DNA of 64,000 nucleotides, from the NCBI RefSeq assembly GCF_003859805.1, contig NZ_RQZG01000002.1, forward strand, positions 124,001-188,000. The letters run 5' to 3'. The notes beneath the pieces were generated by a model. It made no database searches. It saw only the letters and a program-made list of their open reading frames with translations, and was not told the DNA's origin. Source of the stretch: Arachnia propionica (lineage in GTDB: Bacteria > Actinomycetota > Actinomycetes > Propionibacteriales > Propionibacteriaceae). Below are positions 5,182 to 25,155 of the stretch, piece after piece; position 1 is the first letter of the stretch, and every line of letters starts with the position of its first letter. The position numbers and the translations under genes were made by a program.

Positions 5182-6525
5182 TCAGCCCTCGACCCAGGTG
5201 GATCCCCGGTCGAAACCGGTGCTGGCGGACCACGACGCATGCTCCGCCAACCGCTCCGGACGACCGTGCTGCTGCTGGATCCGTTGACCGGCCCTCAGCC
5301 GGATCTCGTTGTCGTCGATGACCAGTCCGGTCGGCTGGTCGTCGTTGCGGTAGATGTAGGCGTTGACGGCGTCGTGGAACCTGTTGCCCGTGATGGTGAG
5401 CCCCATCGGGAGCTCCTCGGAGTAGGAGAGCAGGTGGACCCCTCCGGCCTCCTTGTCCGGGCGTGCCCGGTACCCCCACCCGACACCGGCGTCGGTGCAG
5501 TGGTTCCCGGTGAAGGTGCAGTCGACGTATCCCGCGCCCTCACCGTCATGGCGCAGCTCCCGCAGGAGAGCGCCGTGCTCGTCACGGACGGCCTGCCCCC
5601 TGGACCAGATCTCGAAGGACTGGCTGCACCGGGTGATGCGGTTGTCCCGCACGTGCACGTCGGACCAGCCGTGACGGAGCACCGGTTCGTCCTTCGTGGT
5701 CTCCACCACCTGCTCGCCCTGCAGGGTGACGGCCACGTCGTAGACGTCCTGGATGACGTTGCCCTCGACCAGGACGTCATGGCTGTTGATCCACATCTCC
5801 ACCCCGTTGCCGTAGCGGGTGCCGGGGACGGGGAAGGTGAGCAGCTCGCTGCCACCGATCTCCCGGATCCGGTTGCCCCGCACCCGGACCCCCCTCGCGT
5901 CGAGCACCTGCACCCCGTGGCCACCACAGCCCACGAGGTCCAGCCCCTCGATGGTCATGTCGCTCACGGCCTGGAACAACCTGCCGTCGACCGCGGCCAG
6001 CACCTCACCGCGTCGGCTCGGGTTGTCCTGGCTGTGGACGGTGAGGGTGCCCTCCCCGAGATCACAGCACCAGTCCCAGTCGTGGATGAGTTCGTCGGGG
6101 CTCATCCTCCGCCCCGTGAGGAACTCCCCGTTGACACGGAGCAGGCCGACGTTGACATCGGTGGTCGAGCGGTTCCCGGTGTGGGTGCCGGGGTCGTCCA
6201 GCTGGATCCGCCACCGGTTCCGGCCGAGGGCACGCCAGGCATCAGGGCGGTCCAGCACCTTGTAGCCCACGATCCGGGGACGTTCCCCACGGCCGTAGGC
6301 CCCGAAGGTGATCCGGCCCTCCCCCTGGAGGGAGCCGAGGTCGCTGAACTGGCCGTGGAACCGGTGCCCGGCGTGGAACAACACGGTGTCCCCGCGCACG
6401 ACCTCCCCCCGCTCGATGGCCTGCAGCACCCGGGGGATGGTGGCCCAGGGCCTGGCCACGGAGGTTCCCGGGTCCTCGTCCCGGCCCTCGGTGGAGACGT
6501 GGAAGGTGTTTCCGGAACTCGGCAT
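5182..6525 (-). CDS. Right-handed parallel beta-helix protein, signal-less paralogue 1
   Basis: The 447-residue protein is a pectate-lyase-like beta-helix with serial N-x-I/V turn motifs (VRGNRIREIGG, VEGNVIQDVYD, VRDNRITRCSQ, ITGNRFHDAVN). It shares conserved blocks with the proteins at 19868-21235 and 21625-23055: GYKVLDR, GGHGVQV, RYGNGVE, CSQSFEIWSRG and the end motif TGFDR. Unlike them it has no signal peptide: the ATG at 6525, with AGGAGC 6 nt upstream, gives MPSSGNTFHVSTEGRD directly. The frame is open to 6591 but adds no hydrophobic stretch. It follows the sugar ABC permease genes on the same strand, with its own LacI-type operator between. Family folds include lyases and glycoside hydrolases; no catalytic residues are assigned. 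Confidence 0.8.
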   Translation of the reverse strand: MPSSGNTFHVSTEGRDEDPGTSVARPWATIPRVLQAIERGEVVRGDTVLFHAGHRFHGQFSDLGSLQGEGRITFGAYGRGERPRIVGYKVLDRPDAWRALGRNRWRIQLDDPGTHTGNRSTTDVNVGLLRVNGEFLTGRRMSPDELIHDWDWCCDLGEGTLTVHSQDNPSRRGEVLAAVDGRLFQAVSDMTIEGLDLVGCGGHGVQVLDARGVRVRGNRIREIGGSELLTFPVPGTRYGNGVEMWINSHDVLVEGNVIQDVYDVAVTLQGEQVVETTKDEPVLRHGWSDVHVRDNRITRCSQSFEIWSRGQAVRDEHGALLRELRHDGEGAGYVDCTFTGNHCTDAGVGWGYRARPDKEAGGVHLLSYSEELPMGLTITGNRFHDAVNAYIYRNDDQPTGLVIDDNEIRLRAGQRIQQQHGRPERLAEHASWSASTGFDRGSTWVEG

Positions 6526-6596
6526 GGCTGCTCCTGTGGGAGGCGGCCGGCACGACGACCGCGGTGTCGGAAGGGTGGATGGCGACGCCACCAGCG

Positions 6597-6610
6597 TAAG
6601 AGCGCTCTCA
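6597..6610 (-). promoter_or_regulatory. LacI-family-type operator
   Basis: TAAGAGCGCTCTCA is a near-perfect palindrome centred on GCGC, the hallmark of LacI/GalR operators in actinobacterial sugar operons. It lies about 72 bp upstream of the beta-helix gene ending at 5182 and 30 bp after the ABC permease stop. No LacI-family gene is in the window. Confidence 0.6.
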
Positions 6611-6639
6611 CTTCACTGCAAGACCACCGGCGGGAGGGC

Positions 6640-7485
6640 TCACGTCTTGATCGCGCCATCGGTCAGTCCCCTGAGGAACTGGCGGGAACCGAGCATGAAC
6701 ACCAGCAGCAGTGGGGTCACCGCGATCACAGCACTCATCATGAGCATCCCGTAGTCCGTGCCGTGGGCGGTCTGCAGCTGGGACAGTGCCACCTGCAGGG
6801 TCAGCTGGTTCGGGTTCGTCAGCACGATCAACGGCCACAGGAAGTCGTTCCAGGAGCCGATGAAGGTGAAGATGCCGAGGAACGCCAGCGCCGGTCGGGC
6901 CGCGGGCAGGGCGACGTGCAGGTACTGCCGGAAGAAACCACACCCGTCGATGGTGGCGGCCTCCAACAGCTCGACGTGGACCGCACTGGTGAAGTACTGC
7001 CTGAGCCAGAAGATCCCGAAGGCGTTGGCGAAGGCCGGGAACATCACGGCCTGAAGCTTCCCCACCCAGCCGATCTCACTCATGATGAGGAACAACGGGA
7101 TGGTCGAGAGCTGCCCCGGCAGCAGGAAGGTCAGCATGATGATCCCGAACAGCACACCACGCCCCTTGAAGGAGTACTTCGCGAAGGCGAAGGCGGCGAT
7201 CGAGTCCAGGAACAGCACCACGGCGGTCACCACGAGGGCGACCAGACAGGTGTTGGCCATCGCGGCCCACACGTTGACCGTGTTGATGACGGTGAGGAAG
7301 TTCTCCATCCCGCGATCCCCGGGCAGCAGCGGCGGCGGGAACTCGTAGATCGCGGCGGAGCGGTGCGTGGACAGCACGAACATCCAGTAGAAGGGGAAGA
7401 AGGCCAGCAGCGCCCCGACGATGAGGAAGGCGTGCCTGCCGATCGCGCTCAACCGGATGGGACGACGACGGGTCACCGTGCTCAC
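6640..7485 (-). CDS. Carbohydrate ABC transporter permease, MalG type
   Basis: The 281-residue protein has six hydrophobic helices and the inner-membrane-component EAA loop (EAATIDGCGFFRQYLHVALP) that contacts the ATPase. It belongs to the CUT1 family of sugar importers. It overlaps the upstream permease gene by 4 nt, so the two form a translationally coupled pair. The partners are the permease at 7482-8420 and the binding lipoprotein at 8420-9739. No ATPase gene is present in the cluster, so a shared MsiK/MalK-type ATPase encoded elsewhere is expected. Confidence 0.93.
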   Translation of the reverse strand: MSTVTRRRPIRLSAIGRHAFLIVGALLAFFPFYWMFVLSTHRSAAIYEFPPPLLPGDRGMENFLTVINTVNVWAAMANTCLVALVVTAVVLFLDSIAAFAFAKYSFKGRGVLFGIIMLTFLLPGQLSTIPLFLIMSEIGWVGKLQAVMFPAFANAFGIFWLRQYFTSAVHVELLEAATIDGCGFFRQYLHVALPAARPALAFLGIFTFIGSWNDFLWPLIVLTNPNQLTLQVALSQLQTAHGTDYGMLMMSAVIAVTPLLLVFMLGSRQFLRGLTDGAIKT

Positions 7486-8420
7486 GACTCCCTCCCCCTG
7501 GCCGCGAACCAGTTGATGATGGCGAACACCAGCACCACGCCCACCACCCCCCAGGCGATGGCGGCACCGTAGCCGTACCGGTTGTCCTTGAAGGCCGCGG
7601 CGTAAAAGTACATCACCATCGTCAACCCGGAGTTGCCGACCCCGCCACTGGCCGCCGCGCTGCCGACCTGGGAGCTGGTCAGCACCTGCGACTCGGTGAA
7701 CGACTGCAGGGACCCGATGGTGGACATGATCGTCACGAACAGCACGATGGGTCGCAGCAGCGGCAGGGTGATGGTGAAGAACTGCTTCACCGACCCCGCC
7801 CCGTCGAGGGCCGCCGCCTCATAGATCTGACGCGGGATGGACTGCAGCCCCGCCAGGATGATGAGCGCGTTGTACCCGACGAAGCTCCATGTGGTCAGCG
7901 TCGCGATGGCGATCTTGATCCCCCACTCGGTCTGCAGCCACCGGATGTTGCTCATCCCGACGGCGTTGAGCAGGGCGTTGGCCACCCCGAAGTTGCTGGA
8001 GAAGATGGAGCCGAACAGGATGCCCATCGCCACCAGTGAGGTGACGTTCGGCAGCAGGTAGGCCACCCGGTAGGTGTTGGAGAACCGGGTGACGCTGTTG
8101 AGCGCCAGCGCGACGAGGGTGGCCAGGGTCAGACACGGCACCGTCGACATCACCCACAGGATGAGGGTGTTGACCAAGGATTTCCAGAACAGCTTGTCGG
8201 TGACGAGCCATTCGTAGTTCTTCAACCCGATGAAGCGGGCCTCCCCCAGCCCGGACCAGCTGGTCAGCGAGATGTAGGCGGTGAAGATGATCGGGATGGC
8301 CGAGAACACCAGGAAGAGCAGGTAGTAGGGCGAGACGGCCAGGTAGAGCGGGAGAGCACGTCGCCCCCGCACACCCAGCGTGCCGGGCTCCTGGCTTCCC
8401 GTGCGGGGGCGACGACTCAT
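7482..8420 (-). CDS. Carbohydrate ABC transporter permease, MalF/UgpA type
   Basis: The 312-residue protein has six hydrophobic segments, beginning with LAVSPYYLLFLVFSAIPIIF, and an EAA-type loop (YEAAALDGAGSVKQFFTITL). It is the heterodimer partner of the MalG-type permease downstream. Its ATG overlaps the stop of the binding-protein gene (TGATG) and its stop overlaps the next permease by 4 nt, showing a tight three-gene transport operon. Sugar specificity cannot be read from the permeases; the neighbouring mannosidase operon suggests manno-oligosaccharides or N-glycan fragments. Confidence 0.93.
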   Translation of the reverse strand: MSRRPRTGSQEPGTLGVRGRRALPLYLAVSPYYLLFLVFSAIPIIFTAYISLTSWSGLGEARFIGLKNYEWLVTDKLFWKSLVNTLILWVMSTVPCLTLATLVALALNSVTRFSNTYRVAYLLPNVTSLVAMGILFGSIFSSNFGVANALLNAVGMSNIRWLQTEWGIKIAIATLTTWSFVGYNALIILAGLQSIPRQIYEAAALDGAGSVKQFFTITLPLLRPIVLFVTIMSTIGSLQSFTESQVLTSSQVGSAAASGGVGNSGLTMVMYFYAAAFKDNRYGYGAAIAWGVVGVVLVFAIINWFAARGRES

Positions 8421-9739
8421 CAGAGGCTCAGCCCTTCCTGCTCGGCCAACCGCTTGGCGGCCTCGACGGCGTCGTTCCAGGCCTGCTCCGGGTCCTTGCC
8501 GCTGGCCTCGACGAGCTGGAGCTCGGCGTAGAACGGCCCACTCACGGTGCCGTTGGCCGGGTGCTCGTGGAGCGGACGGACCGTCTCGGCGGCCCTGGCG
8601 AAGAGTTCTCCCGCAGCCTGGCCCCCGAGGAACTCCACCGGCGCCTTCAGCTCGTCGGAGGCGAAGGCCGCCGAGTTGGCCGGGAAGTTGCCCTTGTCCA
8701 CGTACTCGAGGATCTGGTTCTCGGGGTTCAGGATGTGCAGGATCACCTCGAGGGCCTGTCCCGCGTCGGCCGTCCCCGCCGGGATGGCCAGGAAGGAGCC
8801 ACCGTTGTTCGTCGCCTCGCCGGGGTGCTCACACACGTGCCACGTGCCCGCGGTGTCGGGGGCATCCACCATGAGGTCGGCCAGGTGCCAGGAGGCCCCG
8901 AAGTCGGCGGGGAGCTTGCCCGCTGCCACCGCAGCCGTGGAGTCCGGGGAGTTGGAGGTGAGCGCTGCCGAGATGCCCAGACCGTGGGCCTTGACGGCCC
9001 GGTCCCAGGCCTCACGGATGTGGGTCTCACCGCCGATGAACTTGTGGGACCTGTCGATGAAGTTCATCCCGGACTGCTGCACCATGATGTCGAACAGTCC
9101 TGAGATGTTGCGGATGAGGAAGGTCTCGGCATCCTTGCCCTTCATCTCCACGCCGAGGGAGAAGTACTCGTCCCAGGTCCGGATCGCGGCCCCGAGGGCA
9201 TCGGGCTCCGAGGGCAACCCCATGGCCTCGAGGATGTCGAAACGGTAGAACAACGCGGTGGGGCCGATGTCGATGGGAATACCGAGCTGACGACCATCCT
9301 CGGTGGTGGCCTGGGCCCACTTCCAGTCCAGGAAGTCCCCCTTCTTCTCCGCTGCACCCAGCGTGTTGAGGTCGACGAAGTAGTCCGCCTGGGCGGCGAA
9401 GAAGGCGATGTCCTCACCCTTGACCCCCGTGATGGAGGGCTTGGCCTCCTTGCCCTGGAGGGTCACGGAGAGCTTCTGCTTGAAGTCGCCACCGATGACG
9501 TCCTGGCGCAGCGAGACGTTCGGGAACGTCGTCCTCACCGAGTCCAGGACCTGCTGGGCGAAGCCCTCGGGCCAGGTCCACAGCACCATCTCGGCGGCCT
9601 CACCGGATGCTCCGGCGGAGCCTCCTGAAGGGCTCGTGGTGGGGTTGACGGCCGTGGAACAGGCCGTGAGCGCGGTCGCCAGCGAGGCGACGCCTCCGAG
9701 GGTGAGCACTCCGCGACGAGAGATGCGGCAGGTGGTCAT
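8420..9739 (-). CDS. Sugar ABC transporter substrate-binding lipoprotein
   Basis: The 439-residue protein starts MTTCRISRRGVLTLGG and has a lipobox LTAC at about residues 24-27, so it should be a lipoprotein anchored outside the membrane. The twin arginines (ISRRGVL) suggest Tat export. The mature part is a family 1 extracellular solute-binding protein (MVLWTWPEGFAQQVLDS near the start). The ATG at 9739 was chosen over an upstream ATG because AAGGAG lies just before it. It leads the transport operon and diverges from the DeoR-type regulator gene across about 250 bp, so one regulator may control both sides. Confidence 0.92.
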   Translation of the reverse strand: MTTCRISRRGVLTLGGVASLATALTACSTAVNPTTSPSGGSAGASGEAAEMVLWTWPEGFAQQVLDSVRTTFPNVSLRQDVIGGDFKQKLSVTLQGKEAKPSITGVKGEDIAFFAAQADYFVDLNTLGAAEKKGDFLDWKWAQATTEDGRQLGIPIDIGPTALFYRFDILEAMGLPSEPDALGAAIRTWDEYFSLGVEMKGKDAETFLIRNISGLFDIMVQQSGMNFIDRSHKFIGGETHIREAWDRAVKAHGLGISAALTSNSPDSTAAVAAGKLPADFGASWHLADLMVDAPDTAGTWHVCEHPGEATNNGGSFLAIPAGTADAGQALEVILHILNPENQILEYVDKGNFPANSAAFASDELKAPVEFLGGQAAGELFARAAETVRPLHEHPANGTVSGPFYAELQLVEASGKDPEQAWNDAVEAAKRLAEQEGLSL

Positions 9740-9909
9740 GGTCCTTCTCCTTGGATCTTTCACTTGGCTGCGGGCCACACAGCCGGGGCCTCACCGGGCA
9801 GGGGATGACACGGTTCCCCGTCGGGGGAGTGCACGTCCTGGTGCGTCATCCGCTTCCTCCATCGTTGAGGGCATCCTGCTGGCCTTGGCTCAGGTTAGGA
9901 TGCACGGTC

Positions 9910-9934
9910 TTGAGTGTCAATGCTTGAGTTTGAA
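9910..9934. promoter_or_regulatory. Paired direct repeats in divergent ABC/DeoR promoter region
   Basis: TTGAGTGTCAA (9910-9920) and TTGAGTTTGAA (9924-9934) are spaced 14 bp start to start in the gap between the binding-protein gene and the DeoR-type gene. DeoR regulators commonly bind short direct repeats, so this is a reasonable operator candidate. The binding is inferred. Confidence 0.45.
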
Positions 9935-9952
9935 GTTTTTTGATCGTTCTTG

Positions 9953-9981
9953 TTGCGCACCGACCGAACCAGGGCTAAGTT
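9953..9981 (+). promoter_or_regulatory. Leaderless promoter of the DeoR-led catabolic operon
   Basis: TTGCGC (9953-9958) and TAAGTT (9976-9981) are 17 bp apart, and the ATG at 9988 follows the -10 box by 6 bp. Transcription should start at the start codon itself. Confidence 0.6.
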
Positions 9982-9987
9982 TGCGGC

Positions 9988-10734
9988 ATGCTGAAAGAGG
10001 CGCGGCTCCAGGCGATCCTCGACCACCTCCGCGAGCGGCAGGTGGAGAGCACCGCCGCGCTCGTCGACGCCCTGGGGGTCTCGGCCGCCACGGTCCGACG
10101 CGACCTCGACGAGCTGGTCTCCTCCGGGCTCGTCACCCGAGTCTTCGGTGGGGCCAAGCTCACCATCTCGGAGGCCGTCGACGAACCCTTCGACGAGGTG
10201 CTGCCCCGCAACTCCACCGCGAAACGCAGCATCGCCCGCCTCGTCGCCACCCAGCTCCAACCCGGCAGCACCGTCTTCCTGGAGGCCGGGACCACCTGCT
10301 GGGAGGTGGCGATGGCGGCACAGGAGATGGAGTTGACGGTGGTGACCAACTCCCTGCGCATCGCCGAGCTCCTGCTCCCCCACCCCGGCATCGAGCAGAT
10401 CCTCCTGGGGGGCAGCGTCAACCGGGAGTACCTCTGCACCCAGGGGGCAGCCGCGGTCACCGAGATCGGCAACCTCCTGATCGATGTCGCGGTCATCGGC
10501 TGCTCGGGGGTCGGGGAACGTCACGTGCTGCGCGACACCAGCCAACGGGAGCTGGAGGTCAAACGGGCGCTCCGGGCGAGCTCCTCACGGCTGATCCTCG
10601 CCGCCGACCACGGCAAGTTCCCCGGAATCGGGGCCTACACCGCCCTGGACCTCACCGAGGTCGACCTGTTGGTCACCGACCGTCCCCTCGCCCCTGCCTG
10701 GGCCGACCCACCGACGAAAGTGCTCCACCCATGA
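9988..10734 (+). CDS. DeoR/GlpR family transcriptional regulator
   Basis: The 248-residue protein has an N-terminal winged helix-turn-helix (TAALVDALGVSAATVRRDLD) followed by a sugar-phosphate-sensing DeoR C-terminal domain (FLEAGTTCWEVA, TVVTNSLRIAELLL, GCSGVGERHVLRDTSQRELE). Family effectors are phosphorylated sugars, which fits a downstream GH4 enzyme. It is the first gene of a six-gene operon; its stop overlaps the GH4 start by 4 nt (ATGA). It is divergent from the sugar ABC importer, which it may also regulate. Confidence 0.92.
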   Translation: MLKEARLQAILDHLRERQVESTAALVDALGVSAATVRRDLDELVSSGLVTRVFGGAKLTISEAVDEPFDEVLPRNSTAKRSIARLVATQLQPGSTVFLEAGTTCWEVAMAAQEMELTVVTNSLRIAELLLPHPGIEQILLGGSVNREYLCTQGAAAVTEIGNLLIDVAVIGCSGVGERHVLRDTSQRELEVKRALRASSSRLILAADHGKFPGIGAYTALDLTEVDLLVTDRPLAPAWADPPTKVLHP

Positions 10735-12116
10735 GACTGACCCTGCTCGGAGGAGGCGGGTTCCGCGTCCCCCTCCTGTTCCGCACCCTGTTGGCCGACC
10801 GCAGTGACCGTCGCGTCACCGAGCTGAGGCTCTGGGACACCGACCCCACGCGTGTGCACACCGTGAACCGCATCCTGCACGCCATGGCCGAGGGGCGCCC
10901 CACCGCCCCGGATGTCATCGTCGCCAACTCCCTCGAGGAAGCGGTGCGGGGCAGCGACTTCGTCTTCAGCGCCATCCGGGTCGGCGGCACCAGCGGTCGG
11001 GCGGCCGAGGAGGAGATCGCCCACTGCTGTGGGGTGCTCGGGCAGGAGACCACCGGTTTCGGCGGCCTCGACTACGCTCTCCGGGGCATCCCGACCGCTC
11101 TGGAGATCGCCCGCACCGTCGCGACGGTGGCACCGCGGGCCCACCTCATCAACTTCACCAACCCCGCCGGGATCATCACCGAGGTCTCCTCCCGCGTCCT
11201 CGGCGACCGTGTGATCGGCATCTGCGACTCCCCCATCGGTCTCGCCCGGCGTGTGCTGGGCACCCTGGAGGGTGCGGGTCTGGCCCCGGTCGGCAGCGCC
11301 CGTGACGTCATCGCAGGCGACGACCGCCTCCGGATGGACTACGTCGGTCTCAACCACCTGGGATGGCTGCAGCACCTCGAGGTCGAGGGCGTCGACGTGC
11401 TTCCCCGCCTGCTGGAGCGCCCCGACCTCCTCGAGTCCTTCGAGGAGGGGCGACTCTTCGGCGCCGCCTGGCTCCAGTGGCTGGGTTCGATCCCGAACGA
11501 GTACCTGCACTACTACTACTTCGCGCGCGAGACCCGCCTGGCCGACGAGCAGCTGGAGGCCACCCGGGGGATCTTCCTCGCCCGGCAGCAGGCAGAGTTC
11601 TACCGGCAGGCGGCCGACCTGGACGGCCCGGCGGCCTTCGCCCTGTGGGAGGCGACCCGGCTCCGACGCGAGGAGACCTACATGGCCTCCAACCGGTTGG
11701 CCGCCGGTGGCCTCACCCGTGACGAGGAGGACCTCGCCTCCGGTGGGTACGATCGGGTGGCGCTGGCGGTGATGAAGGCCCTGGCCTTCGACGAGGCCAC
11801 CGACCTCATCGTCAACTTCCGCAACGGTTCCCGGCTGCCGATGCTGCCCGCTGACACCGTCATCGAGGCGCCGTGCCGGATCGACGCGAGCGGGGTCACC
11901 CCCCTGCCGGTCTCCCCACTGCCGGACCACGCCATCGGGCTGGTGCAGTCGGTGAAGTTCGCGGAACGCACCATCATCCAGGCCTCGCTGAACGGCAGCC
12001 GGGATGACGCCGTCGCCGCCCTCGCCCTGCACCCCCTGATCGACGGGGTCGGGGTGGCGAGACGGTTGCTCGACGAGGCCACGGCCCGTTTCCCCGAACT
12101 GTCCGAGCTGTCCTGA
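10731..12116 (+). CDS. Glycoside hydrolase family 4 (6-phospho-beta-glucosidase-like)
   Basis: The 461-residue protein has the GH4 dinucleotide-binding start MRLTLLGGGGFRVPLLF, the NFTNPAG motif, a CDSP motif in the position where GH4 enzymes carry the metal-ligand Cys, and NHLGW with the second metal-ligand His. GH4 enzymes use NAD+ and Mn2+ in an oxidation-elimination mechanism; the closest known activities are 6-phospho-glycosidases. No PTS is present, so a phosphorylated substrate would have to be phosphorylated inside or be taken up as a phospho-sugar. The ATG is embedded in the stop of the regulator gene, and the next gene starts 9 nt after its stop. Confidence 0.88.
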   Translation: MRLTLLGGGGFRVPLLFRTLLADRSDRRVTELRLWDTDPTRVHTVNRILHAMAEGRPTAPDVIVANSLEEAVRGSDFVFSAIRVGGTSGRAAEEEIAHCCGVLGQETTGFGGLDYALRGIPTALEIARTVATVAPRAHLINFTNPAGIITEVSSRVLGDRVIGICDSPIGLARRVLGTLEGAGLAPVGSARDVIAGDDRLRMDYVGLNHLGWLQHLEVEGVDVLPRLLERPDLLESFEEGRLFGAAWLQWLGSIPNEYLHYYYFARETRLADEQLEATRGIFLARQQAEFYRQAADLDGPAAFALWEATRLRREETYMASNRLAAGGLTRDEEDLASGGYDRVALAVMKALAFDEATDLIVNFRNGSRLPMLPADTVIEAPCRIDASGVTPLPVSPLPDHAIGLVQSVKFAERTIIQASLNGSRDDAVAALALHPLIDGVGVARRLLDEATARFPELSELS

Positions 12117-12125
12117 AAGACCCCC

Positions 12126-15191: not shown

Positions 15192-16216
15192 AGCTCCTGC
15201 TCATCGGCGTCGACGGTGTCCGCATCGACGTCGCCGTGCCCGCTGCCCTGGCCGCCCACCCGGGATTCGCCGCCCCTGACCACCCGGCCGATCCCCGGTT
15301 CGCGGCGGAGGCGGCACCGCCGGATCGTCCCACGATGCCCCCTGCCGACCCCGAGCGTCCCGGGGCCCGGACCCTGGCCAGACTGATCGACGGTGGGCTG
15401 GTCGCCCCGGTGTGGATGACGCCACCCACCGATTCCGGGCCGGGCTGGTCCAGCCTGCTGACCGGCACCACCCACGAGCAGAACAACGTGTGGTGGAACG
15501 AGTTCGTCGGCCACCGGCTGGCCGAGTGCCCGGACCTGCTGTCGAGGGTGTTCTTCGCCGATCCCCGCGCCCTCACCTATGCCGGGTCCACCTGGGATGC
15601 GCTGGTGGGGGGCGTCGGGCCCGTGATCCACCAGCGGGTGGACCAGCAGCGTGCGGGGCGACACGTCTCGTTCATGGCCCGGGACTTCACGCGTGGCTGC
15701 GTCAGCGCCGACGTCGAGGTGCGCAGCCACGCCTGCCACCACCTCAACCATGTCGGCCCGGATGCCGCGTTCGTCTACGTCGAAGGGGTCGACGAGGCCG
15801 GGCACCGTCACGGCGCCGCGTCGCAGGAGTACCTCACAGCCATCGGCGAGGTCGACGAACACGTGCGGGCCCTGGTCAAGGCCGTCGCGGAACGCTACGA
15901 GGCGCTCGGTGAGGACTGGCTCATCGCGGTGGTCACCGACCACGGCCACAAACCGGAGGGCGGTCACGGCGAGGACGAGGTGGAGGTACGTCGCTCCTTC
16001 CTCATCCTGCACCGTCTGGGCGGCCCCGTCGAGATCCCGGAACGGTGGCAGGACGACGGTGGGCGTCTGCGCACGTTGCGCAGCCATGAGGTGACACCGC
16101 TGCTGCTGGAGCTCATCGGGGTGCAGGGCGGCAGTTGGACCCCCGACCACGAGGTGGGGGTCGCCACGGACATCCCGTCCGTCGGTCCCACCCGCGACCT
16201 GACCTACGAGTGGTGA
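15188..16216 (+). CDS. Alkaline phosphatase superfamily (type I phosphodiesterase/nucleotide pyrophosphatase-like) protein
   Basis: The 342-residue protein shows the two-metal site of the superfamily: IGVDGVRID at the N-terminus, PPTDSGPGWSSLLTG carrying the probable Thr/Ser nucleophile, DEAGHRHG and TDHGHK. It has no signal peptide or membrane helix, so it is cytoplasmic. It overlaps the GH38 gene by 4 nt and precedes GH125 by 7 nt, so it belongs to the glycan operon. A plausible role, inferred only from context, is removal of a phosphate or phosphodiester substituent from mannose residues before glycosidase attack. The exact substrate cannot be read from sequence; sulfatase activity is unlikely because no C/S-x-P-x-R motif is seen. 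Confidence 0.8.
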   Translation: MKLLLIGVDGVRIDVAVPAALAAHPGFAAPDHPADPRFAAEAAPPDRPTMPPADPERPGARTLARLIDGGLVAPVWMTPPTDSGPGWSSLLTGTTHEQNNVWWNEFVGHRLAECPDLLSRVFFADPRALTYAGSTWDALVGGVGPVIHQRVDQQRAGRHVSFMARDFTRGCVSADVEVRSHACHHLNHVGPDAAFVYVEGVDEAGHRHGAASQEYLTAIGEVDEHVRALVKAVAERYEALGEDWLIAVVTDHGHKPEGGHGEDEVEVRRSFLILHRLGGPVEIPERWQDDGGRLRTLRSHEVTPLLLELIGVQGGSWTPDHEVGVATDIPSVGPTRDLTYEW

Positions 16217-16223
16217 CCCGCCC

Positions 16224-17525
16224 ATGACCTCATGGGGCGAAACGGTCGGGGTCCCCACCCGGAACCCGCTCCGGCTCGACGACGCGGTCCTGGACCGGGT
16301 CCAGACCCTGGTCGGTGCCGCGGTCGGGGAGGAAGCCGCACGGATGTGCGTCAGGTTCCTGGTCAACACCGCCACCACGACGGTGGACCTGAGCGAAGAG
16401 GCCTTCGTCATCACCGGGGACATCCCGGCGATGTGGCTGCGCGACTCCTGCCTGCAGCTGGCCCCCTTCCTGCGGCTGGGGGACCCGGAGCTGCTGGAGG
16501 TGGCTGCGTCACTGCTGCGTCGGCACTGGCGGATGATCCGTCTCGACCCGTACGCCAACGCCTTCAACGCGACGGCCAACGGGAACCGCTGGGACGATGA
16601 CGAACCCCTGCAGCACCCCCACGTGTGGGAACGCAAGTGGGAGCTGGACTCACTGACCCATCCGCTGGACCTGGCACTCCGACTGGAGCGGTTGGGCTGC
16701 ACCAGCTGGCGCAGCCCCGACTTCCTGCCCGCGCTGCGGGTGATCCTGGAGATCGTCGGGATCGAGCAGGACCACGAGGTCCGCAGCCGGTACCGGTTCC
16801 ACCGCCCGGGCGCGTCGCCGTCGGACACCCTCGGTCGTGACGGCCGTGGCCCCCTCACCCGCCCCACGGGTCTGGTGTGGCAGGGCTTCAGACCCAGCGA
16901 CGACGCCTGCGAGCTGGGCTTCAACATCCCGGCCAACCTGTACCTCGCCAGCACCCTGCGGGGCTTCGCAGACCTGCCCGAGGTGGGTGGTCCCGCAGCT
17001 CTGCTCAGCCAGGAGATCCTCCGGGCGGTCAAGGGCTCGGGCATCGTCGATGGGGTCCTGGCCTACGAGGTGGACGGGGCCAAAGGGCATGTGATGCTGG
17101 ATGACGCCAACGTGCCCTCGCTGCTCAGCCTGCCCTGGCTGGGAGTGCTCGCCGCCGATGATCCGCTGTACCTGGCCACCCGCGAGGTCGTGCTCTCCGC
17201 CGCCAATCCACACTTCCACACCGACGCCGAGGGACGCGGTGGTGTCGGCTCCCCCCACACCCCCGGTCCCCTGGTCTGGCCCATCGGCATCGCGATGGCG
17301 GGACTCACCGCACTCTCCCCCGAGGAGCGTCGGGATCAGCTCGAGCTGTTGCAGGACACCACGGGTGGGACCGGCTGGATGCACGAGGCCTACCATGTCG
17401 CCGATCCCAGGCAGTTCACCCGGCCGTGGTTCTCCTGGGCGAACTCGATGTTCGTCGACCTGGCCCTGGAGATCGCCGGTCTGCCTCGCCCCGGCACGGG
17501 GCTGTCCCCCCTGGAGCTCACATGA
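16224..17525 (+). CDS. GH125 exo-alpha-1,6-mannosidase
   Basis: The 433-residue protein matches the metal-independent alpha-mannosidase family GH125. Its conserved landmarks include TGDIPAMWLRDSCLQL near residue 70, NGNRWDDDEP, WERKWELDSL and a C-terminal WSFSWANSMF-like block (FTRPWFSWANSMFVDLALE). Family members from Clostridium and Streptococcus hydrolyse non-reducing alpha-1,6-mannose in N-glycan cores. There is no signal peptide. Together with GH38 it could strip a branched high-mannose or core glycan. Its stop overlaps the next start (ATGA). Confidence 0.92.
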   Translation: MTSWGETVGVPTRNPLRLDDAVLDRVQTLVGAAVGEEAARMCVRFLVNTATTTVDLSEEAFVITGDIPAMWLRDSCLQLAPFLRLGDPELLEVAASLLRRHWRMIRLDPYANAFNATANGNRWDDDEPLQHPHVWERKWELDSLTHPLDLALRLERLGCTSWRSPDFLPALRVILEIVGIEQDHEVRSRYRFHRPGASPSDTLGRDGRGPLTRPTGLVWQGFRPSDDACELGFNIPANLYLASTLRGFADLPEVGGPAALLSQEILRAVKGSGIVDGVLAYEVDGAKGHVMLDDANVPSLLSLPWLGVLAADDPLYLATREVVLSAANPHFHTDAEGRGGVGSPHTPGPLVWPIGIAMAGLTALSPEERRDQLELLQDTTGGTGWMHEAYHVADPRQFTRPWFSWANSMFVDLALEIAGLPRPGTGLSPLELT

Positions 17526-19816
17526 CCGCCCAGTTCCGACTGCTCTCGCCGCTGGCCCACGTCCTGCCCAGCGGCCCCGTCGGCCCCGGCCTGGACGAAC
17601 TCACCGCCTGGGGTGGGGAACCTGCCCGGTTCCTCGTCGCCTGGCGGCTGCCGGCCACCCGAAACTCCCGTGCCGAGGCGTTGTTCCGGCTCGAGATCGA
17701 CGCTCCGGGATGTCGTGTCGAGATCAGCCGTGCGGAGCTGGTGCCGGTGCAGATCCCTCATTTCGAGGGCAACGCCGACGGGTTCGTCGTGGACTCCCCC
17801 ACCCTGCTGCCGGATCCACTGATCCCGGTCACCAGCGCCACGGATGCGTCGCAGGTGACCCTGAGGGCCTCGCATCTCGGTTGGCACTGCCTGCACGTGG
17901 TGCTCTGGCCGAGCTGCGATGCGACGGTGACGGTCACGGGATCGCTCGTCGACGAGTGGAACGGCTCGGTGACCCGGCTCGGCCGCACCGGTGTCCCGCT
18001 CGTCCACGCCCTGGACCGGCTCGAGGTGGCGGGGCCGTCAGTGACGCAGTGGGTGCATCCCGACTGCCTGCTCCACGTCTACGACGTGTCCCCGTTCAGC
18101 GAGGAGCACTGGAGCGCCATCGGTGCCCACCTCAGATGCGCGGCGGAGATGGGGGTCACCGGGACGATCGCCCCGCTGTGGGCTCCGGCCCTCGACACCG
18201 CCGAGGGCAGCTACCGGCCGGACGTGCAGCTCCTGGGGATCACCTGTTCCGCCACCGGTGCGTACACCTTCGACGCGGATCGGGCGCGACGTTTCCTCCT
18301 CCTCATGGTGGAAGCCGGGATGAGGCACGTCGAGACCCCGCCCCTGTTCACCCAGTGGGGAGCGAGGCATGCCCCGCCGATCCGGGTGGCGTACGACGGG
18401 GCCGAGCCCGGGCTGCGGTTCGGCTGGCACACCCCCGCCGACGACGAGGCCTACCTCGCCTTCCTCGACCAGCTGCTCCCCTTCGTCCATGACCTGCTGG
18501 CCGAGTTCCCCCAACTGAAACCCTTCGTCCACATCTCCGACGAGCCTGATTCCTCGACCGCCGAGCGGTTCGCGGCGGTGCGTCGTCGTCTGAAGGAGGC
18601 CCTCGGTGATCTCCCCACCCTGGATGCCCTCTCCGACCCGGGGTTCCGGGACCTCGTCGACGAACCCGTGGTGGCAACCGATGCGGTGTCGAGGTGGCAG
18701 GAGGTCGGGGTGGAGCCGAACTGGGTGTACCACTGCGTGATCCAGGCCGATCTGGCCAACCGGTTCATCGCGATGGAGCCATCACGCATCCGGATGCTCG
18801 GACTGCAGATGTTCACCGCCGGGGCCACCGGATTCCTGCACTGGGGTTTCGACTTCTACTTCCACGCCCTCTCCCGCAACACCCTCGACCCCTGGCAGGA
18901 CACCAGTGCGGGCGGTTGTTTCCCCTCCGGCGACGCCTTCGTCGTCTATCCCGGCCCCGGCCTCGAACCGGTGCGTTCACTGCGCTGGTGGCAGATCCGC
19001 GACGCCTTCCGCGACTGGGCACTGTTCACCCACGCCACCGAACTCCTCGGAAGAGAACGTGTCGTGGCCATGCTCACCCGGGGGCAGCCGATGGACTACA
19101 CCACCTTCCTGGACGCCACCACCTACGAGGAACGTCGGCACGTCCTCATCGAACGACTCACCCTGGAGGAACGGATCGCCGACGACCTCCTCCTCTCACG
19201 CGCCCGTGTGGCGGCCGACCCCACCCTGGAGACCGTGCGGAAGCTGAGCACCGCCCTGCACCAGGCAGCGCAGTTGGCCCTCACCCAGGACCACAGGGAC
19301 GAGGCTGAGGCCTACTACCAGGAGTTCCTCACCCACATCCGCTCCATCCGGGCCCAGGAGGACGGCATCGAGGCCCGAATCGGACTCAGCGTCGCCCTGA
19401 CGGAGTTGGCCACCCTCGCCGAGGAGCGTGAGGACTGGGGAAAGGCCCGGGAGTTCTACATGGAAGTGCTGGAACTCACGCGCACGATCGCTCTCGAGGA
19501 CCCGACCCCGGAGACCCAGCATGACCTGCAGGTGGCCCTCGACGACGTCGGGGACGCGGCGGCAGAGCTGGGCGACTGGGCCAGTGCCGCGACCCACCAC
19601 GGGGAATCGGTGACCATCGCACGGACGGTGTTCGCGTCGCATCCCTCGGAGCAGAGCCAGATCGACCTGGCGGTGGGACTGCGCAATCTCAGCCGTGCGA
19701 CGGCTCACCTGGGTCTGGTGGACGAGGCCCGTCGCCTCGCCGTCGAGGCCCGGGACCTCGCAGCCCCGCTGGGCCGCCCCGACCTCCTGGCCTGGGTCGA
19801 GGAGCTGCTGGAGTGA
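17522..19816 (+). CDS. GH123/DUF4091-like hydrolase fused to a C-terminal TPR domain
   Basis: The 764-residue protein has an N-terminal beta-sandwich region, a TIM-barrel with the GH123-type neighbouring acid pair in HISDEPD (D340, E341), and the conserved GHWG-like segment GFLHWGFDFYFHALS. Known GH123 enzymes are N-acetyl-beta-galactosaminidases. From about residue 570 onward there are three to four TPR-like repeats of roughly 48 residues (QHDLQVALDDVGDAAAELGD, QIDLAVGLRNLSRATAHLGL), a repeat type usually found in signalling ATPases rather than glycosidases. No signal peptide is present. It ends the operon and is followed by a strong hairpin. The function of the fused repeats is unknown; oligomerisation or scaffolding of the pathway are possible. 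Confidence 0.82.
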   Translation: MTAQFRLLSPLAHVLPSGPVGPGLDELTAWGGEPARFLVAWRLPATRNSRAEALFRLEIDAPGCRVEISRAELVPVQIPHFEGNADGFVVDSPTLLPDPLIPVTSATDASQVTLRASHLGWHCLHVVLWPSCDATVTVTGSLVDEWNGSVTRLGRTGVPLVHALDRLEVAGPSVTQWVHPDCLLHVYDVSPFSEEHWSAIGAHLRCAAEMGVTGTIAPLWAPALDTAEGSYRPDVQLLGITCSATGAYTFDADRARRFLLLMVEAGMRHVETPPLFTQWGARHAPPIRVAYDGAEPGLRFGWHTPADDEAYLAFLDQLLPFVHDLLAEFPQLKPFVHISDEPDSSTAERFAAVRRRLKEALGDLPTLDALSDPGFRDLVDEPVVATDAVSRWQEVGVEPNWVYHCVIQADLANRFIAMEPSRIRMLGLQMFTAGATGFLHWGFDFYFHALSRNTLDPWQDTSAGGCFPSGDAFVVYPGPGLEPVRSLRWWQIRDAFRDWALFTHATELLGRERVVAMLTRGQPMDYTTFLDATTYEERRHVLIERLTLEERIADDLLLSRARVAADPTLETVRKLSTALHQAAQLALTQDHRDEAEAYYQEFLTHIRSIRAQEDGIEARIGLSVALTELATLAEEREDWGKAREFYMEVLELTRTIALEDPTPETQHDLQVALDDVGDAAAELGDWASAATHHGESVTIARTVFASHPSEQSQIDLAVGLRNLSRATAHLGLVDEARRLAVEARDLAAPLGRPDLLAWVEELLE

Positions 19817-19820
19817 ACGC

Positions 19821-19862
19821 GGACGACGGGGGTGTGAACCGCTGCTCACACCCCCGTCGTCC
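19821..19862. terminator. Bidirectional terminator hairpin
   Basis: A perfect 17-bp stem (19821-19837 with 19846-19862) with an 8-nt loop separates the end of the plus-strand glycosidase operon from the convergent beta-helix gene whose stop is at 19868. It serves both directions. It lacks a long U tract, as is usual in high-GC actinobacteria. Confidence 0.85.
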
Positions 19863-19867
19863 GGTGC

Positions 19868-21235
19868 TCAGGCGATGACGAACCTGGAGTTCTTGTCGAA
19901 GCCGGTGGCCTCGGACCAGGCGGCGTGCTGCTCGATGAGCTCACCGCGCTGCTGCTGGAGCTTCTGCCCCGCCTTCAGCTGGATGGTGTTGTTGTCGATC
20001 TTCATCTGGGCTCGATTCGACATGTGTCGGTACATGTAGGCGTTGACCGCGTTGAGGAACCGGTTGCCGCTGATGGTGACGTCCATGGGCAGCTCCTCGG
20101 CGTAGGCCAGCAGGTGCACACCACCCTCCTCCGGGTTGCGACGCACCGCCTGACCCCAGCCACCGCCCGCGTTGTGGCAGGTGTTCCCGGTGAAGGTGCA
20201 GTTGCGATGGCCAGCCTCTGGGCCACGATTGGCGCCCCTCGACCACACCTCGAAGGACTGGCTGCAACGGTTGACACTGTTGCCCTTGATGTGGACGTCG
20301 CGCCAGCCGAGGAAGTTGCCCTCCTGGCCTCCCTGGATGGTGAATGCGACATCGTAGACGTCGTAGACCCGGTTGTTCTCGACCAAGACATCGCTGCACC
20401 CGGTCCAGATCTCGATACCATTGCCATATCGCATGGTCGGATCCTCTGGAACCCCCAGATGCTTGCTGCCACCGATGTGATGGACGTGGTTGTCAAGGAT
20501 CCGTACTCCCGAGGCTTTCTCCACATGGATGCCGTGACCGCCGATGCCGATGAAATCAAGCCCTTGGACGGTCGTGTTCGACTTCGGCTGGATCAGCCAG
20601 CCATCAGCGGCCGCCAAGACCCCGTGCCCAGCAGGGTTGTCGGCGCAGTTCACCGTGAGAATCCTCGATTCCGGGTCGGAGTGGAACTCGAACTGGGAAC
20701 GCAGCTCACCGATGGAGAACTTCTTCGCCCCGTAGAACTCCTTGCCGCTGATCCGCAGGAACCCAATGTTGCCCTCTCGTCCGGAACGGGAAGAGGTGTT
20801 TCCACGGTAGTTCCTGGTGTCGCTGAGGTCGATCTGCCACAGGTTGTCCCCGACCTTCGACCAGGCCTGGGCGCGGTCGAGCACCTTGTAGCCCATGATC
20901 ACCGGGTGGGCCCCGGTGCCGTAGGCCCCGATGGTCAGCCGGGCCTCCCCATTGGGTTGGGAAAGCACCGGGATCTCCCCGAAGAAACGCTGTCCGCGCT
21001 GGAACAGCACGGTGTCACCGTGGACGATCTGCCCGTCGGCAAATGCTTTGTTCACCCGATTGATGGTTTTCCAGGCAGCACTCTCCGAGGTACCTGCAGC
21101 ATTGTCATCCCCCTGCAGGGAGACGAAGTAGGTGCGGCGCGACTGCGCACGCGCATCAGCAGGCATTCCGGCCAACAGGGCAACAGCAGGAAGTGCACCT
21201 GCTGCCGCCAGGACACTGCGACGACTCAAGGACAT
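19868..21235 (-). CDS. Tat-exported right-handed parallel beta-helix protein, paralogue 2
   Basis: The 455-residue protein begins MSLSRRSVLAAAGALPAVAL with a twin-arginine signal ending near ADARAQ, so it is exported folded. The mature part starts RTYFVSLQGDDNAAGTSESA and forms a beta-helix with the same blocks as its two paralogues (GYKVLDR, GIGGHGIHV, RYGNGIEIWTG, CSQSFEVWSRG, GGWGQAVRRNPEEGGVHLL). An ATG 12 nt upstream is also in frame, but GGAG lies 6 nt before the chosen one. It is the only one of the three next to the mannosidase operon terminator. Likely acts on an extracellular polysaccharide or glycan; enzyme class not determined. Confidence 0.82.
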   Translation of the reverse strand: MSLSRRSVLAAAGALPAVALLAGMPADARAQSRRTYFVSLQGDDNAAGTSESAAWKTINRVNKAFADGQIVHGDTVLFQRGQRFFGEIPVLSQPNGEARLTIGAYGTGAHPVIMGYKVLDRAQAWSKVGDNLWQIDLSDTRNYRGNTSSRSGREGNIGFLRISGKEFYGAKKFSIGELRSQFEFHSDPESRILTVNCADNPAGHGVLAAADGWLIQPKSNTTVQGLDFIGIGGHGIHVEKASGVRILDNHVHHIGGSKHLGVPEDPTMRYGNGIEIWTGCSDVLVENNRVYDVYDVAFTIQGGQEGNFLGWRDVHIKGNSVNRCSQSFEVWSRGANRGPEAGHRNCTFTGNTCHNAGGGWGQAVRRNPEEGGVHLLAYAEELPMDVTISGNRFLNAVNAYMYRHMSNRAQMKIDNNTIQLKAGQKLQQQRGELIEQHAAWSEATGFDKNSRFVIA

Positions 21236-21272
21236 CCGAAACTCCATTCACGATGTGGGTCCGACAACTCGC

Positions 21273-21284
21273 TGAAACGATTCA
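21273..21284 (-). promoter_or_regulatory. LacI-type operator shared by beta-helix genes
   Basis: TGAAACGATTCA is a CG-centred near-palindrome 38 bp before the start of the gene ending at 19868. The same 12-mer, together with flanking GACAAC-x-CG, occurs 40 bp before the third beta-helix gene. This is the pattern expected for a common LacI-family repressor. Confidence 0.65.
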
Positions 21285-21390
21285 TCAGCGGGTCTTTCGC
21301 CAGCCTAATCGGCCTTGACCAAGGCCTCAACCGCCCCAGCGCCCTCTTTTCAGTCAGCGGTCGAACGCCCCGCCAGAATCGGAGAAATCT

Positions 21391-21473
21391 GCATTTCTTG
21401 ACAGGGATTTGATGCACCATTGACGCATTCTTGATGCCATGTTGACCATGGAATGATGAGGCAGTTCTTGACA
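21391..21473. repeat. Three direct repeats of a GCA(T/G)TTCTTGA motif
   Basis: GCATTTCTTGACA (21391-21403), GCATTCTTGATGC (21425-21437) and GCAGTTCTTGACA (21461-21473) recur at 34 and 36 bp intervals in an AT-richer stretch upstream of the second beta-helix gene. The 389-bp gap 21236-21624 otherwise holds only the operator at 21273 and the hairpin at 21531. The regular spacing suggests cooperative protein binding; this is an inference. Confidence 0.5.
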
Positions 21474-21530
21474 CCGATCAGGGCAATCCTGGCGGATTCT
21501 CGACGACACATCCCCGTCCCTCACATCACA

Positions 21531-21568
21531 AGACCTGGCGGAAGTCCGTCAGGACTCCCGCCAGGTCT
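21531..21568 (-). terminator. Terminator hairpin after third beta-helix gene
   Basis: An 11-bp outer stem (21531-21541 with 21558-21568) encloses a second 5-bp stem, giving one long hairpin 57 nt beyond the stop at 21625. Confidence 0.75.
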
Positions 21569-21624
21569 CCGGCATCCGCCTTTCTCAGACCTCTGCATCC
21601 GCTCGATCAGCGAAGGAGCGAGGT

Positions 21625-23055
21625 TCAGCCGATGACGAACTCGCTGTTGCGGTCGAACCCGGTGTCACGCGACCACTCCTCGTGCTCCTCGATGGTCTGC
21701 CGCTGCTGCTTCATCCACTCCTCCGGGCGATCGGCCTGGATCCGCTGCCCCGGCTTGAGGCGGATGACGTTCTCGTCGATCACGAGGTCGTTCTCCTGCT
21801 CCGGCTGTCGGTACATGTAGGCGTTGAGCGCACCCAGGAACTTGTTCCCGGTCACCTTGAGGTCCATGTGGAGGTCCTCGTTGTAGGACAGGAAGTGCAC
21901 CCCGCCCTCCTCCGGGTTGGAACGCACGGCCTGACCCCAGCCCGTACCGGCATCGGTGCAGACGTTGCCGGTGAAGGAGCAGTTGCGGTACCCCGAGGCA
22001 GGACCGTGGTCGTAGGTGGTCTCCTTGTCCTTCTGCTCGAAGCCGCGCGCCCAGATCTCGAAGGACTGGCTGTTGCGGGTGATCCGGTTGTTGCGGATGT
22101 GCACGTTCTTCCAGCCGGTGCGCCACGGCTCGTTCCACTCGGTGGGACCCAGGATCTGCCCGCCCTGGAGGGTGACACCGACGTCGTAGGCCTCGTAGAT
22201 GATGTTGCCCTTGACCAGGACGTCCTTGGTGTTGATCCAGATCTCCACACCGTTGCCGTAACGGGTGGTTCCGTAGACGTAGCTGCCGCCGATGTCCCGA
22301 ACGCGATTGTCGAGGACCTGGACGCTGTCGGCATCCACGACCTGCACCCCGTGCCCACCGCATCCGATGAGGTCGAGCCCCTCGACGGTCATGCTCGAGC
22401 GGAGCTGCACGAGTCGGCCATCGACGGTGATCCTGAGGTCACGAACCTTCGAGGGGTTGTCCTCACGGTAGACGGTGAGGGTCTTCTGCTCCTCGTCGGA
22501 GTGGAAGTGCCACTCCTCACTGAGCTCCTCCACACTCGTCTTCTTGTGGCCCTGGATGACGCCGTCGACGCGCAGGAAACCGACATCGGCGTTGCGGCCC
22601 TCCTGGGCCATCTTGTTGCCGACGTGGGTGTCGGGATCGCCCAGGTTGATCCGCCACAGGTTCTTGCCCACCTTGGACCACATCTCCGGCTTGTTGAGCA
22701 CCTTGTACCCCATGATCTGGGGTCGCCTGCCACGCCCGTAGGCCCCGAGTGTCAGCCTTCCCCGCCCGTTGAGCTCGGGGATCGAGGACAGCTCACCGTA
22801 GAACCGGTGACCGCTGCGGAACAGCACGGTGGAACCGTAGCCGACCTGACCGTCCTGGAAGGCCTTCTGGAGACGCTCCAGGCTCCTCCAGGCCTGCCGC
22901 TGCGAGGTCCCGGCGGCGTTGTCATTGCCCTTCTCCGACAGGTAGAAGGTGAGATTGGTGCTGGTGTCGGCCGAGGCCACGGGGGCCCCGGACAGGAGAC
23001 TGACCGCAGGCAACGCCAGCGCGCCCGCGAGAACACTACGACGACTGATTTCCAT
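21625..23055 (-). CDS. Tat-exported right-handed parallel beta-helix protein, paralogue 3
   Basis: The 476-residue protein starts MEISRRSVLAGALALPAVSL, a Tat signal with probable cleavage near VASADT. The mature domain begins LTFYLSEKGNDNAAGTSQRQ and repeats the blocks of the other two paralogues (GYKVLNK, GCGGHGVQV, RYGNGVEIWI, NSQSFEIWARG, GWGQAVRSNPEEGGVHFLSY). GGAG lies 7 nt before the ATG. It has its own operator (23095-23106) and its own terminator, so it is a single-gene unit. It is probably secreted or cell-surface associated. Substrate and reaction are unknown. Confidence 0.82.
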   Translation of the reverse strand: MEISRRSVLAGALALPAVSLLSGAPVASADTSTNLTFYLSEKGNDNAAGTSQRQAWRSLERLQKAFQDGQVGYGSTVLFRSGHRFYGELSSIPELNGRGRLTLGAYGRGRRPQIMGYKVLNKPEMWSKVGKNLWRINLGDPDTHVGNKMAQEGRNADVGFLRVDGVIQGHKKTSVEELSEEWHFHSDEEQKTLTVYREDNPSKVRDLRITVDGRLVQLRSSMTVEGLDLIGCGGHGVQVVDADSVQVLDNRVRDIGGSYVYGTTRYGNGVEIWINTKDVLVKGNIIYEAYDVGVTLQGGQILGPTEWNEPWRTGWKNVHIRNNRITRNSQSFEIWARGFEQKDKETTYDHGPASGYRNCSFTGNVCTDAGTGWGQAVRSNPEEGGVHFLSYNEDLHMDLKVTGNKFLGALNAYMYRQPEQENDLVIDENVIRLKPGQRIQADRPEEWMKQQRQTIEEHEEWSRDTGFDRNSEFVIG

Positions 23056-23094: not shown

Positions 23095-23106
23095 TGAAAC
23101 GATTCA
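23095..23106 (-). promoter_or_regulatory. LacI-type operator, second copy
   Basis: TGAAACGATTCA lies 40 bp before the third beta-helix gene and is identical to the site at 21273-21284. The flanking bases GGACAACCCGT also resemble the first site, so the match extends beyond the palindrome. Confidence 0.65.

Positions 23107-23562: not shown

Positions 23563-25155
<1,593 letters not shown>

Follow-up and report, generated by a model that had tools for sequence, protein, structure and literature searches.

A predicted mannosidase-phosphodiesterase gene cassette in Arachnia propionica and other actinobacteria

Among described bacterial loci, the closest to the one treated here is the 'hypothetical N-glycan-processing locus 2' of Cutibacterium acnes (AEE71274-71279), drawn with genes for GH4, GH38, a hypothetical protein (HP), a HAD phosphatase, GH125, GH20, a kinase and a set of sugar-binding protein (SBP), permease (PERM) and regulator (REG), and lacking, as its authors noted, a beta-mannosidase candidate (Reichenbach 2018, PMC6160142). 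In Bacteroides thetaiotaomicron, a GH38 enzyme removes phosphate-attached mannose (PMC10154615). In this study, a window of 64,000 nucleotides from the 3.4-Mb genome of Arachnia propionica was analysed, in which gene calls and Pfam place, between 5182 and 23055, a leftward set SBP-permease-permease-bhA, a rightward operon DeoR-GH4-GH38-phosphodiesterase-GH125-GH123 and the leftward genes bhB and bhC, the three bh genes encoding beta-helix proteins. An earlier reading of the same letters (the sequence-only reading) had named these genes, and Pfam found them as named; its statement that the set is not a described locus is corrected by the homologous C. acnes locus in print (PMC6160142).

Compared over 25 loci, the common cassette is transporter-GH38-phosphodiesterase (PDE), usually with GH4 and DeoR. 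As to function, the balance of evidence leans slightly toward a DeoR-controlled cassette that would import a phosphodiester-bearing alpha-mannose oligosaccharide by an ATP-binding cassette (ABC) transporter and dismantle it in the cytoplasm. The locus family has in part been published before, as a hypothesis; new here are the predicted identity of the PDE and its coupling, the taxa over which the cassette is distributed, the restriction of the GH123 and beta-helix genes to few loci and a regulation of bhB and bhC that is probably separate. Host-associated genera, sister species of C. acnes among them, carry the cassette repeatedly. Of its extra genes, the PDE is coupled most tightly, and the literature seems to list it only as a hypothetical protein.

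Conservation of the cassette and coupling of its phosphodiesterase

The 25 loci (the window, L025, L027, L030, L031 and L039-L058; L023, L024, L026, L028, L029 and L032 are identical with L039, L040, L041, L045, L046 and L058 and were counted once) were found via the PDE, so its presence in all of them is by construction. Gene families were assigned by tblastn at 1e-10, and absence means absence within the 15-21 kb taken per locus, or the 30 kb taken in the case of the window; contig ends cut several of these stretches short. GH38 and SBP genes are present in 24 loci each, GH4 and DeoR in 22 each and GH125 in 19. Accessory families are sparser: HAD phosphatase and PfkB kinase 16 each, GH20 14, metallophosphoesterase 7, beta-helix 5 and GH123 3, the last two only in Arachnia-type loci (over 23 loci, gene calls gave HAD 12, GH20 11 and PfkB 9, and tblastn 14, 12 and 14). 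The neighbourhood comparison proposed by the sequence-only reading thus found the core co-conserved across the 25 loci rather than never so, and removed GH123 from that core.

All 16 PfkB-bearing loci have GH4 and all three GH4-less loci are without PfkB (about 0.04); Arachnia-type loci have GH4 and no PfkB. GH4 or HAD is present in each of the 25 loci (25/25), a regularity that is not above chance (about 0.24). Comparison of the metallophosphoesterase with the PDB gave no meaningful match.

A contig scan by PDE alignment with two peptide patterns returned 20 named loci, from Arachnia, Tessaracoccus, Cutibacterium (avidum, namnetense, modestum and porci), Dermabacter, Helcobacillus, Brachybacterium and Kineococcus and from metagenome-assembled genomes (MAGs) named Propionibacteriaceae, Acidipropionibacterium and Actinomyces. 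The nearest named loci are those of Arachnia propionica OH2822 and Propionibacteriaceae MAG S30M_Sa_58, each 90% over the PDE, in a ranking from which records very near the window's own genome may be excluded.

Gene content, order, coupling and co-occurrence could be observed directly. The PDE gene overlaps GH38 by 4 bases in 19/25 loci (17 of the 23 compared, plus L030 and L031) and lies within 4 bases of it in two more; the exceptions are L027 (GH38 gone), L042 (GH38 pieces on the opposite strand, about 7 kb off), L044 (the two genes separated by one for GH2) and L058 (genes split in the calls). Protein divergences of PDE and GH38 correlate over 20 loci (r 0.92; 0/2000 permutations as high). 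Within the genus, a PDE search hit 12 of 25 genomes at E <=0.001, and 11 were taken as orthologues, the match in G006 (20.8 bits) being rejected as too weak. Both PDE and GH125 occur in 10 of these genomes (including G008, where the genes look broken), PDE only in one (G004), GH125 only in one (G013, at L079, with other permeases) and neither in 13, giving a Fisher p of 3.5e-5 that ignores kinship. Among 396 genomes sampled from the phylum, with mostly five candidates scored per genome, only the window's own genome and two remote matches passed 1e-40, so the PDE seems rare. L019-L021 were rejected as weak matches to other AlkP-like proteins, and the remote homologues L033-L038, L077 and L078, from genomes of the order and the phylum, were dropped, no adjacent GH38, GH4 or GH125 being found by tblastn or gene calls; the neighbours of L035 look sugar-type by eye.

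PF01663 (Phosphodiest) spans residues 60-257 of the PDE, and its best profile matches, all over short stretches, are to a bacterial NPP (6.2e-6), ENPP7 (1.9e-5) and ENPP6 (9.2e-5). Residues D9, T81, D202, H206, D251, H252 and H260 are invariant in the 21 full-length PDEs (of 23), and also in 19 aligned ones; we take them to have the metal-site roles of the AlkP superfamily, with placement on 2gsn relying on the alignment of 196-255 plus a weak stretch at D9. R12, H32, R150, D152-Q153-Q154 and H159 are also strongly kept, which suggests that the PDE has a specific ligand.

Several loci deviate from the common plan. L027 (G004; 8164-10856) is eroded, with a DeoR fragment, a full-length GH4 and the PDE, and neither GH38, GH125 nor transporter found. 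L051 (Helcobacillus) and L053 (Dermabacter) have no GH4, GH125 or DeoR within the stretch examined, and L051 carries a second SBP/permease set. In Tessaracoccus bendigoensis (L046, 13484-15385), HAD phosphatase and GH125 share a single 633-codon frame. Most locus genes of Tessaracoccus coleopterorum (L058/L032) are split in gene calls, which may reflect draft quality or decay. In Kineococcus (L044, 16312-18362), IolG-like and IolE-like genes adjoin the transporter, with scores far below the NCBIfam cut-offs.

Predicted enzymes and layout of the island

The glycosidases keep the motifs of their families. In GH38, HAHID.AWLWP, WLPDSFG and FHDILPGSS, presumably with zinc and nucleophile roles, are kept in 20/20 long sequences (24 pieces, short ones excluded). 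In GH125, PSDD and HE, which we take to be the acidic pair, are invariant in the 16 sequences aligned (of 17); the nearest solved structures are 2nvp, 3qt3 and 5m7i, and the enzyme CpGH125 is presumably from Clostridium perfringens. CpGH125 is entry 3qt3 (PMC6160142). The window's GH4 is closest in sequence to 6-phospho-glycosidases, scoring 114-160 bits with nine PDB chains, eight of them so named; none of the other five chains listed exceeds 57.5 bits. The GH4 motif, checked in relatives too, is CDSP, of the form C[DN]xP that we take as the phospho-type GH4 motif.

GH123 has SDEP, with an intact DE dyad, in 3/3 sequences, and its best PDB matches, 8k2l and 8k2n, are named monosaccharide-releasing beta-GalNAcases; from the list of solved enzymes, these can only be the Group 4 enzymes NgaLy and NgaP2. 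The group was assigned by bit score, 278 and 235 for the Group 4 structures vs 47.5 for 8k2j. The Group 4 enzymes assayed were strict for GalNAc, one showing weak GlcNAc activity (PMC11087588). The TPR-like C-terminal region on this signal-less protein (17522-19816) seems unusual for a glycosidase.

The operon is tightly packed, with joints of -4, +9, -4, +7 and -4 bases from DeoR through GH123, and the 63-nt stretch behind it has a folding energy of -45.2 kcal/mol (z -5.86). Because of these gaps, the strong hairpin and the same gene order in other genera, the grouping is not attributable to chance. The hairpin escaped the terminator scan because it has no T tail. Island G+C is 0.677, against 0.690 and 0.678 in the flanks; a sigma-70 promoter scan of 9700-20000 found none, and of 15 plasmid records matched, the best covers 38% of the query and none reaches 80%. 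The sequence-only reading spoke of an apparently complete island, which is too strong, since neither an ABC ATPase nor any recognised endo-glycosidase or beta-mannosidase was found by Pfam among the island genes; a phosphotransferase system is likewise absent from them. Its picture of signal-less hydrolases fed by an importer, with alpha-mannose and beta-GalNAc chemistry, agrees with the families found. Farther right, carboxyltransferase (CT_A_B/CT_C_D) and LamB/YcsF genes at 26677-28919 are probably an ordinary 5-oxoprolinase set.

Table 1 Features of the island and its neighbours (window coordinates)
Feature	Position	Strand	Basis or remark
Dyp peroxidase	4201-5109		Left neighbour of island
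bhA, beta-helix protein	5182..6591 (start may be 6525)	-	PF13229; no visible signal peptide
ABC permease 2	6640..7485	-	PF00528 (BPD_transp_1)
ABC permease 1	7482..8420	-	PF00528 (BPD_transp_1)
SBP, predicted sugar-binding lipoprotein	8420..9739	-	PF13416 (SBP_bac_8); start MTTCRISRRGVLTLGG
Divergent promoter region, SBP/DeoR	9740..9987	unstranded	
DeoR-family regulator	9988..10734	+	PF00455 + PF08220
GH4, putative NAD-type glycosidase	10731..12116	+	Pfam; PDB matches; CDSP motif
GH38, putative alpha-mannosidase	12126..15191	+	Pfam; PDB 7ufs E 1.9e-211; catalytic motifs
PDE, putative NPP-type phosphodiesterase, alkaline-phosphatase superfamily	15188..16216	+	PF01663; ATGA overlap with GH38
GH125, putative exo-alpha-1,6-mannosidase	16224..17525	+	Pfam; PDB 2nvp, 3qt3, others
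GH123, putative Group-4-like beta-GalNAcase, C-terminal TPR region	17522..19816	+	GH123_cat; PDB 8k2l E 1.8e-81
Hairpin, 18 bp, possible terminator	19820..19863		Between operon and bhB; no T tail
bhB, predicted twin-arginine translocation (Tat)-type exported beta-helix protein	19868..21247	-	PF13229
Operator-like TGAAACGATTCA	21273..21284	+	Upstream of bhB
bhC, predicted Tat-type exported beta-helix protein	21625..23055	-	PF13229; weak N-terminal LnbX match
Operator-like TGAAACGATTCA	23095..23106	+	Upstream of bhC
groEL	23563-25152		Right neighbour of island; named by eye from translation

Candidate substrates and the beta-helix genes

The activities and the substrate discussed below are predictions from protein families and conserved residues. 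In the favoured pathway, the SBP and two permeases would import the oligosaccharide, and the PDE, judging from its family and invariant active-site-type residues, would cut a phosphodiester in the cytoplasm, which would either remove a block on the chain or yield a phosphorylated sugar. GH38, as a broad alpha-mannosidase, and GH125, acting on alpha-1,6 bonds, would strip the mannose; GH4 would handle a phosphorylated glycoside, its phosphate coming from the PDE or, where present, the PfkB kinase; and GH123 would remove beta-GalNAc. In other species, the same locus includes genes for GH20, HAD phosphatase, PfkB kinase and metallophosphoesterase. If the substrate is a mannoside with a phosphodiester, the PDE, the phospho-type GH4, the HAD phosphatase and the absence of a beta-mannosidase from the locus would all be accounted for.

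A host N-glycan pathway, in which an endoglycosidase frees Man3-9GlcNAc, an ABC transporter imports it and GH38, GH125 and a hexosaminidase finish it, would leave the PDE to occasional phosphorylated chains or make it incidental. We consider this unlikely, even though GH38+GH125 pairs mark such loci in Streptococcus pneumoniae (PMC5215778) and Bifidobacterium longum (PMC10154615) and the C. acnes homologue is drawn as an N-glycan locus (PMC6160142). Pfam genome searches, run on 22 of the 25 locus-bearing genomes (L047, L051 and L058 outside), found no GH85, GH18, GH92 or GH130 in the window's genome, with positive controls detected; taking GH85 or GH18 as the endo-beta-N-acetylglucosaminidase that a complete N-glycan system needs, the count there is 0. 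The one PF00150 protein of that genome is similar to exo-glucanases and a putative beta-xylosidase and is not GH5_18-like, 6gvb (GH5_18) being absent from its 56 PDB matches. Locus 2 is without a beta-mannosidase candidate according to Reichenbach et al. (PMC6160142). An N-glycan pathway leaves the coupling of PDE and GH38 unexplained. Of the substrates suggested by the sequence-only reading, host N-glycans thus lose ground and phosphomannan gains weight from the PDE, a hint that the cassette feeds on something other than a plain N-glycan.

Several observations weigh against the phosphodiester pathway. Over the 22 genomes, GH85 occurs in 6 and GH18 in 5, which also speaks for N-glycans, GH92 in 5 and GH130 in 3 (GH20 in 21), and three untyped GH2 proteins in the window's genome make a GH2-type beta-mannosidase possible. 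The solved structures nearest to GH38, 7ufr-7ufu, are Bifidobacterium longum N-glycan enzymes. Two GH20 proteins lie elsewhere in the window's genome, and therefore GH123 need not be the sole beta-hexosaminidase. Full-length matching of the PDE to solved NPPs failed, at most about 80 residues aligning (best E 6.2e-6), and therefore the match does not fix the bond cleaved. The correlated divergence of PDE and GH38 proteins shows joint descent, not by itself joint function. GH4 is missing in 3/25 loci; a kinase rather than the PDE may supply its phosphate (PfkB in 16/25 loci, none Arachnia-type); and the roles proposed for PfkB, HAD and metallophosphoesterase follow from family names.

If phosphodiester-bearing mannosides are the food, fungal phosphomannan, glycans modified with phosphoethanolamine (PE) or phosphocholine (PC), glycosylphosphatidylinositol (GPI) glycans and lipoglycans are candidates, and the data favour none. 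That the cassette eats GPI-anchor glycans is very unlikely in our estimate. Such glycans would offer mannose in alpha linkage and no beta-mannose, diesters of ethanolamine phosphate for an NPP-type enzyme and, in animal GPIs, a beta-GalNAc side chain for the GH123 of the Arachnia lineage, a putative GalNAcase to which either animal GPI chains or LacdiNAc would be suited; the metallophosphoesterase of some other species shares its broad kind of Pfam family with PGAP5. We know of no earlier bacterial GPI-glycan pathway, and none of the 15 titles examined out of 82 literature matches concerns one; a search for the PI-PLC-X domain gave no match in the 22 genomes, its positive control being equally silent.

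That the cassette serves to recycle or scavenge lipoglycans or wall polymers of actinobacteria (phosphatidylinositol mannosides, lipomannan or phosphorylated wall polysaccharide), the cell's own or those of neighbours, is highly improbable. Alpha-mannosidases plus a phosphodiesterase would fit it, as would the spread to genera that we presume are not tied to hosts and the Iol-like genes beside the Kineococcus locus; those gene scores, however, fall short of cut-offs as said, the beta-HexNAc enzymes stay unexplained, and the presence of both markers in 10/25 genus genomes fits an optional food over own-wall turnover.

The sequence-only reading counted two Tat-exported beta-helix proteins and one signal-less one, and had the exported ones release the oligosaccharides. 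The beta-helix assignment stands by Pfam; the Tat signals of bhB and bhC were seen by eye (SRRSVL plus a hydrophobic run) and reach 15.6 bits in Pfam, under the cut-off of 22.7. No signal peptide was seen in bhA, nor in its L039 and L040 counterparts as called. The three are paralogues, at 49-53% identity to bhC (bhA 49%). That they form an extracellular first step, making the whole 18 kb one system, is quite unlikely. Adjacency, the Tat-type signals, the position of bhA 48 bases behind the transporter genes and the N-terminal LnbX match speak for it. That match, to the GH136 lacto-N-biosidase LnbX, covers only about 84-104 N-terminal residues at 25-39 bits (cut-off 2500); with no match over the catalytic region, bhA, bhB and bhC were not assigned to GH136. 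Beta-helix genes occur in the Arachnia-type minority of loci, and the strong hairpin parts bhB and bhC from the operon.

Control also differs. The 12-base near-palindrome TGAAACGATTCA, which looks to us like a LacI-type operator, has only two occurrences in the window (shuffles gave a mean of 0.10, and two occurrences in 1/100) and is kept with 0-1 mismatches in 6/6 upstream regions of bhB and bhC from three genomes; the best site has 3 mismatches at the window's SBP/DeoR promoter and 5 at bhA. Because of this common operator, bhB and bhC are probably a separate regulon; separate control applies to these three genomes only, since at L041 and L025, each with one beta-helix gene, the operator is lacking (4 mismatches). 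The motif AGAGCGCTCT, located ahead of bhA, occurs no more often than expected by chance.

Should the PDE cut mannose phosphate links, this would point to a glycan food (phosphomannan, zwitterionic or GPI glycans) unassigned to these bacteria in the literature examined, and the enzyme would be a tool for removing such phosphate-linked groups.

Comparison with known systems

In open-licence literature, no paper was found that joins GH38, GH125, GH123 and GalNAc in an operon, or that brings a mannosidase, a nucleotide pyrophosphatase and GH125 together. Group 4 beta-GalNAcases share the catalytic domain and DE motif with the window's GH123, which differs in its TPR-like C-terminus, its lack of a visible signal peptide and its place in a mannosidase operon (PMC11087588). 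GlcNAc-PDase and PGAP5/MPPE1, sugar phosphodiesterases that take PE or PC off glycans, are alike in kind; they belong to the EEP and metallophosphatase superfamilies, whereas the window's PDE is of NPP type, and GlcNAc-PDase is inactive on mannose (PMC10704324).

The S. pneumoniae locus SP_2141-2146, with NgtS/EndoD, likewise has GH38 and GH125 fed by an ABC importer, but includes GH92, GH29, GH20C and EndoD, and its gene table shows no phosphodiesterase or GH4 (PMC5215778). The high-mannose N-glycan operon of B. longum, with three GH38 genes and GH125, is alike in uniting both families in a single operon (PMC10154615); no Bifidobacterium is among the 20 loci from the two-pattern PDE scan. The yeast alpha-mannan system of B. 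thetaiotaomicron resembles the cassette in GH38 and GH125 exo-mannosidases and in phosphate removal, an earlier example of phosphate being dealt with during the use of mannan; it employs GH76, GH99, GH92 and phosphatases, whereas here GH92 was not found and GH76 and GH99 were outside the search (PMC10154615).

The nearest system remains C. acnes locus 2, which shares GH4, GH38, GH125, transporter and regulator with the window, also has HPs, and carries GH20, HAD and a kinase where the window has GH123 and beta-helix genes, its function being itself hypothetical (PMC6160142). Its published order agrees with the loci found here in C. avidum, C. namnetense, C. modestum and C. porci (PMC6160142). 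From the gene order in these sister species, we infer that one of the HPs of locus 2, which stands outside the 25 loci, is the PDE.

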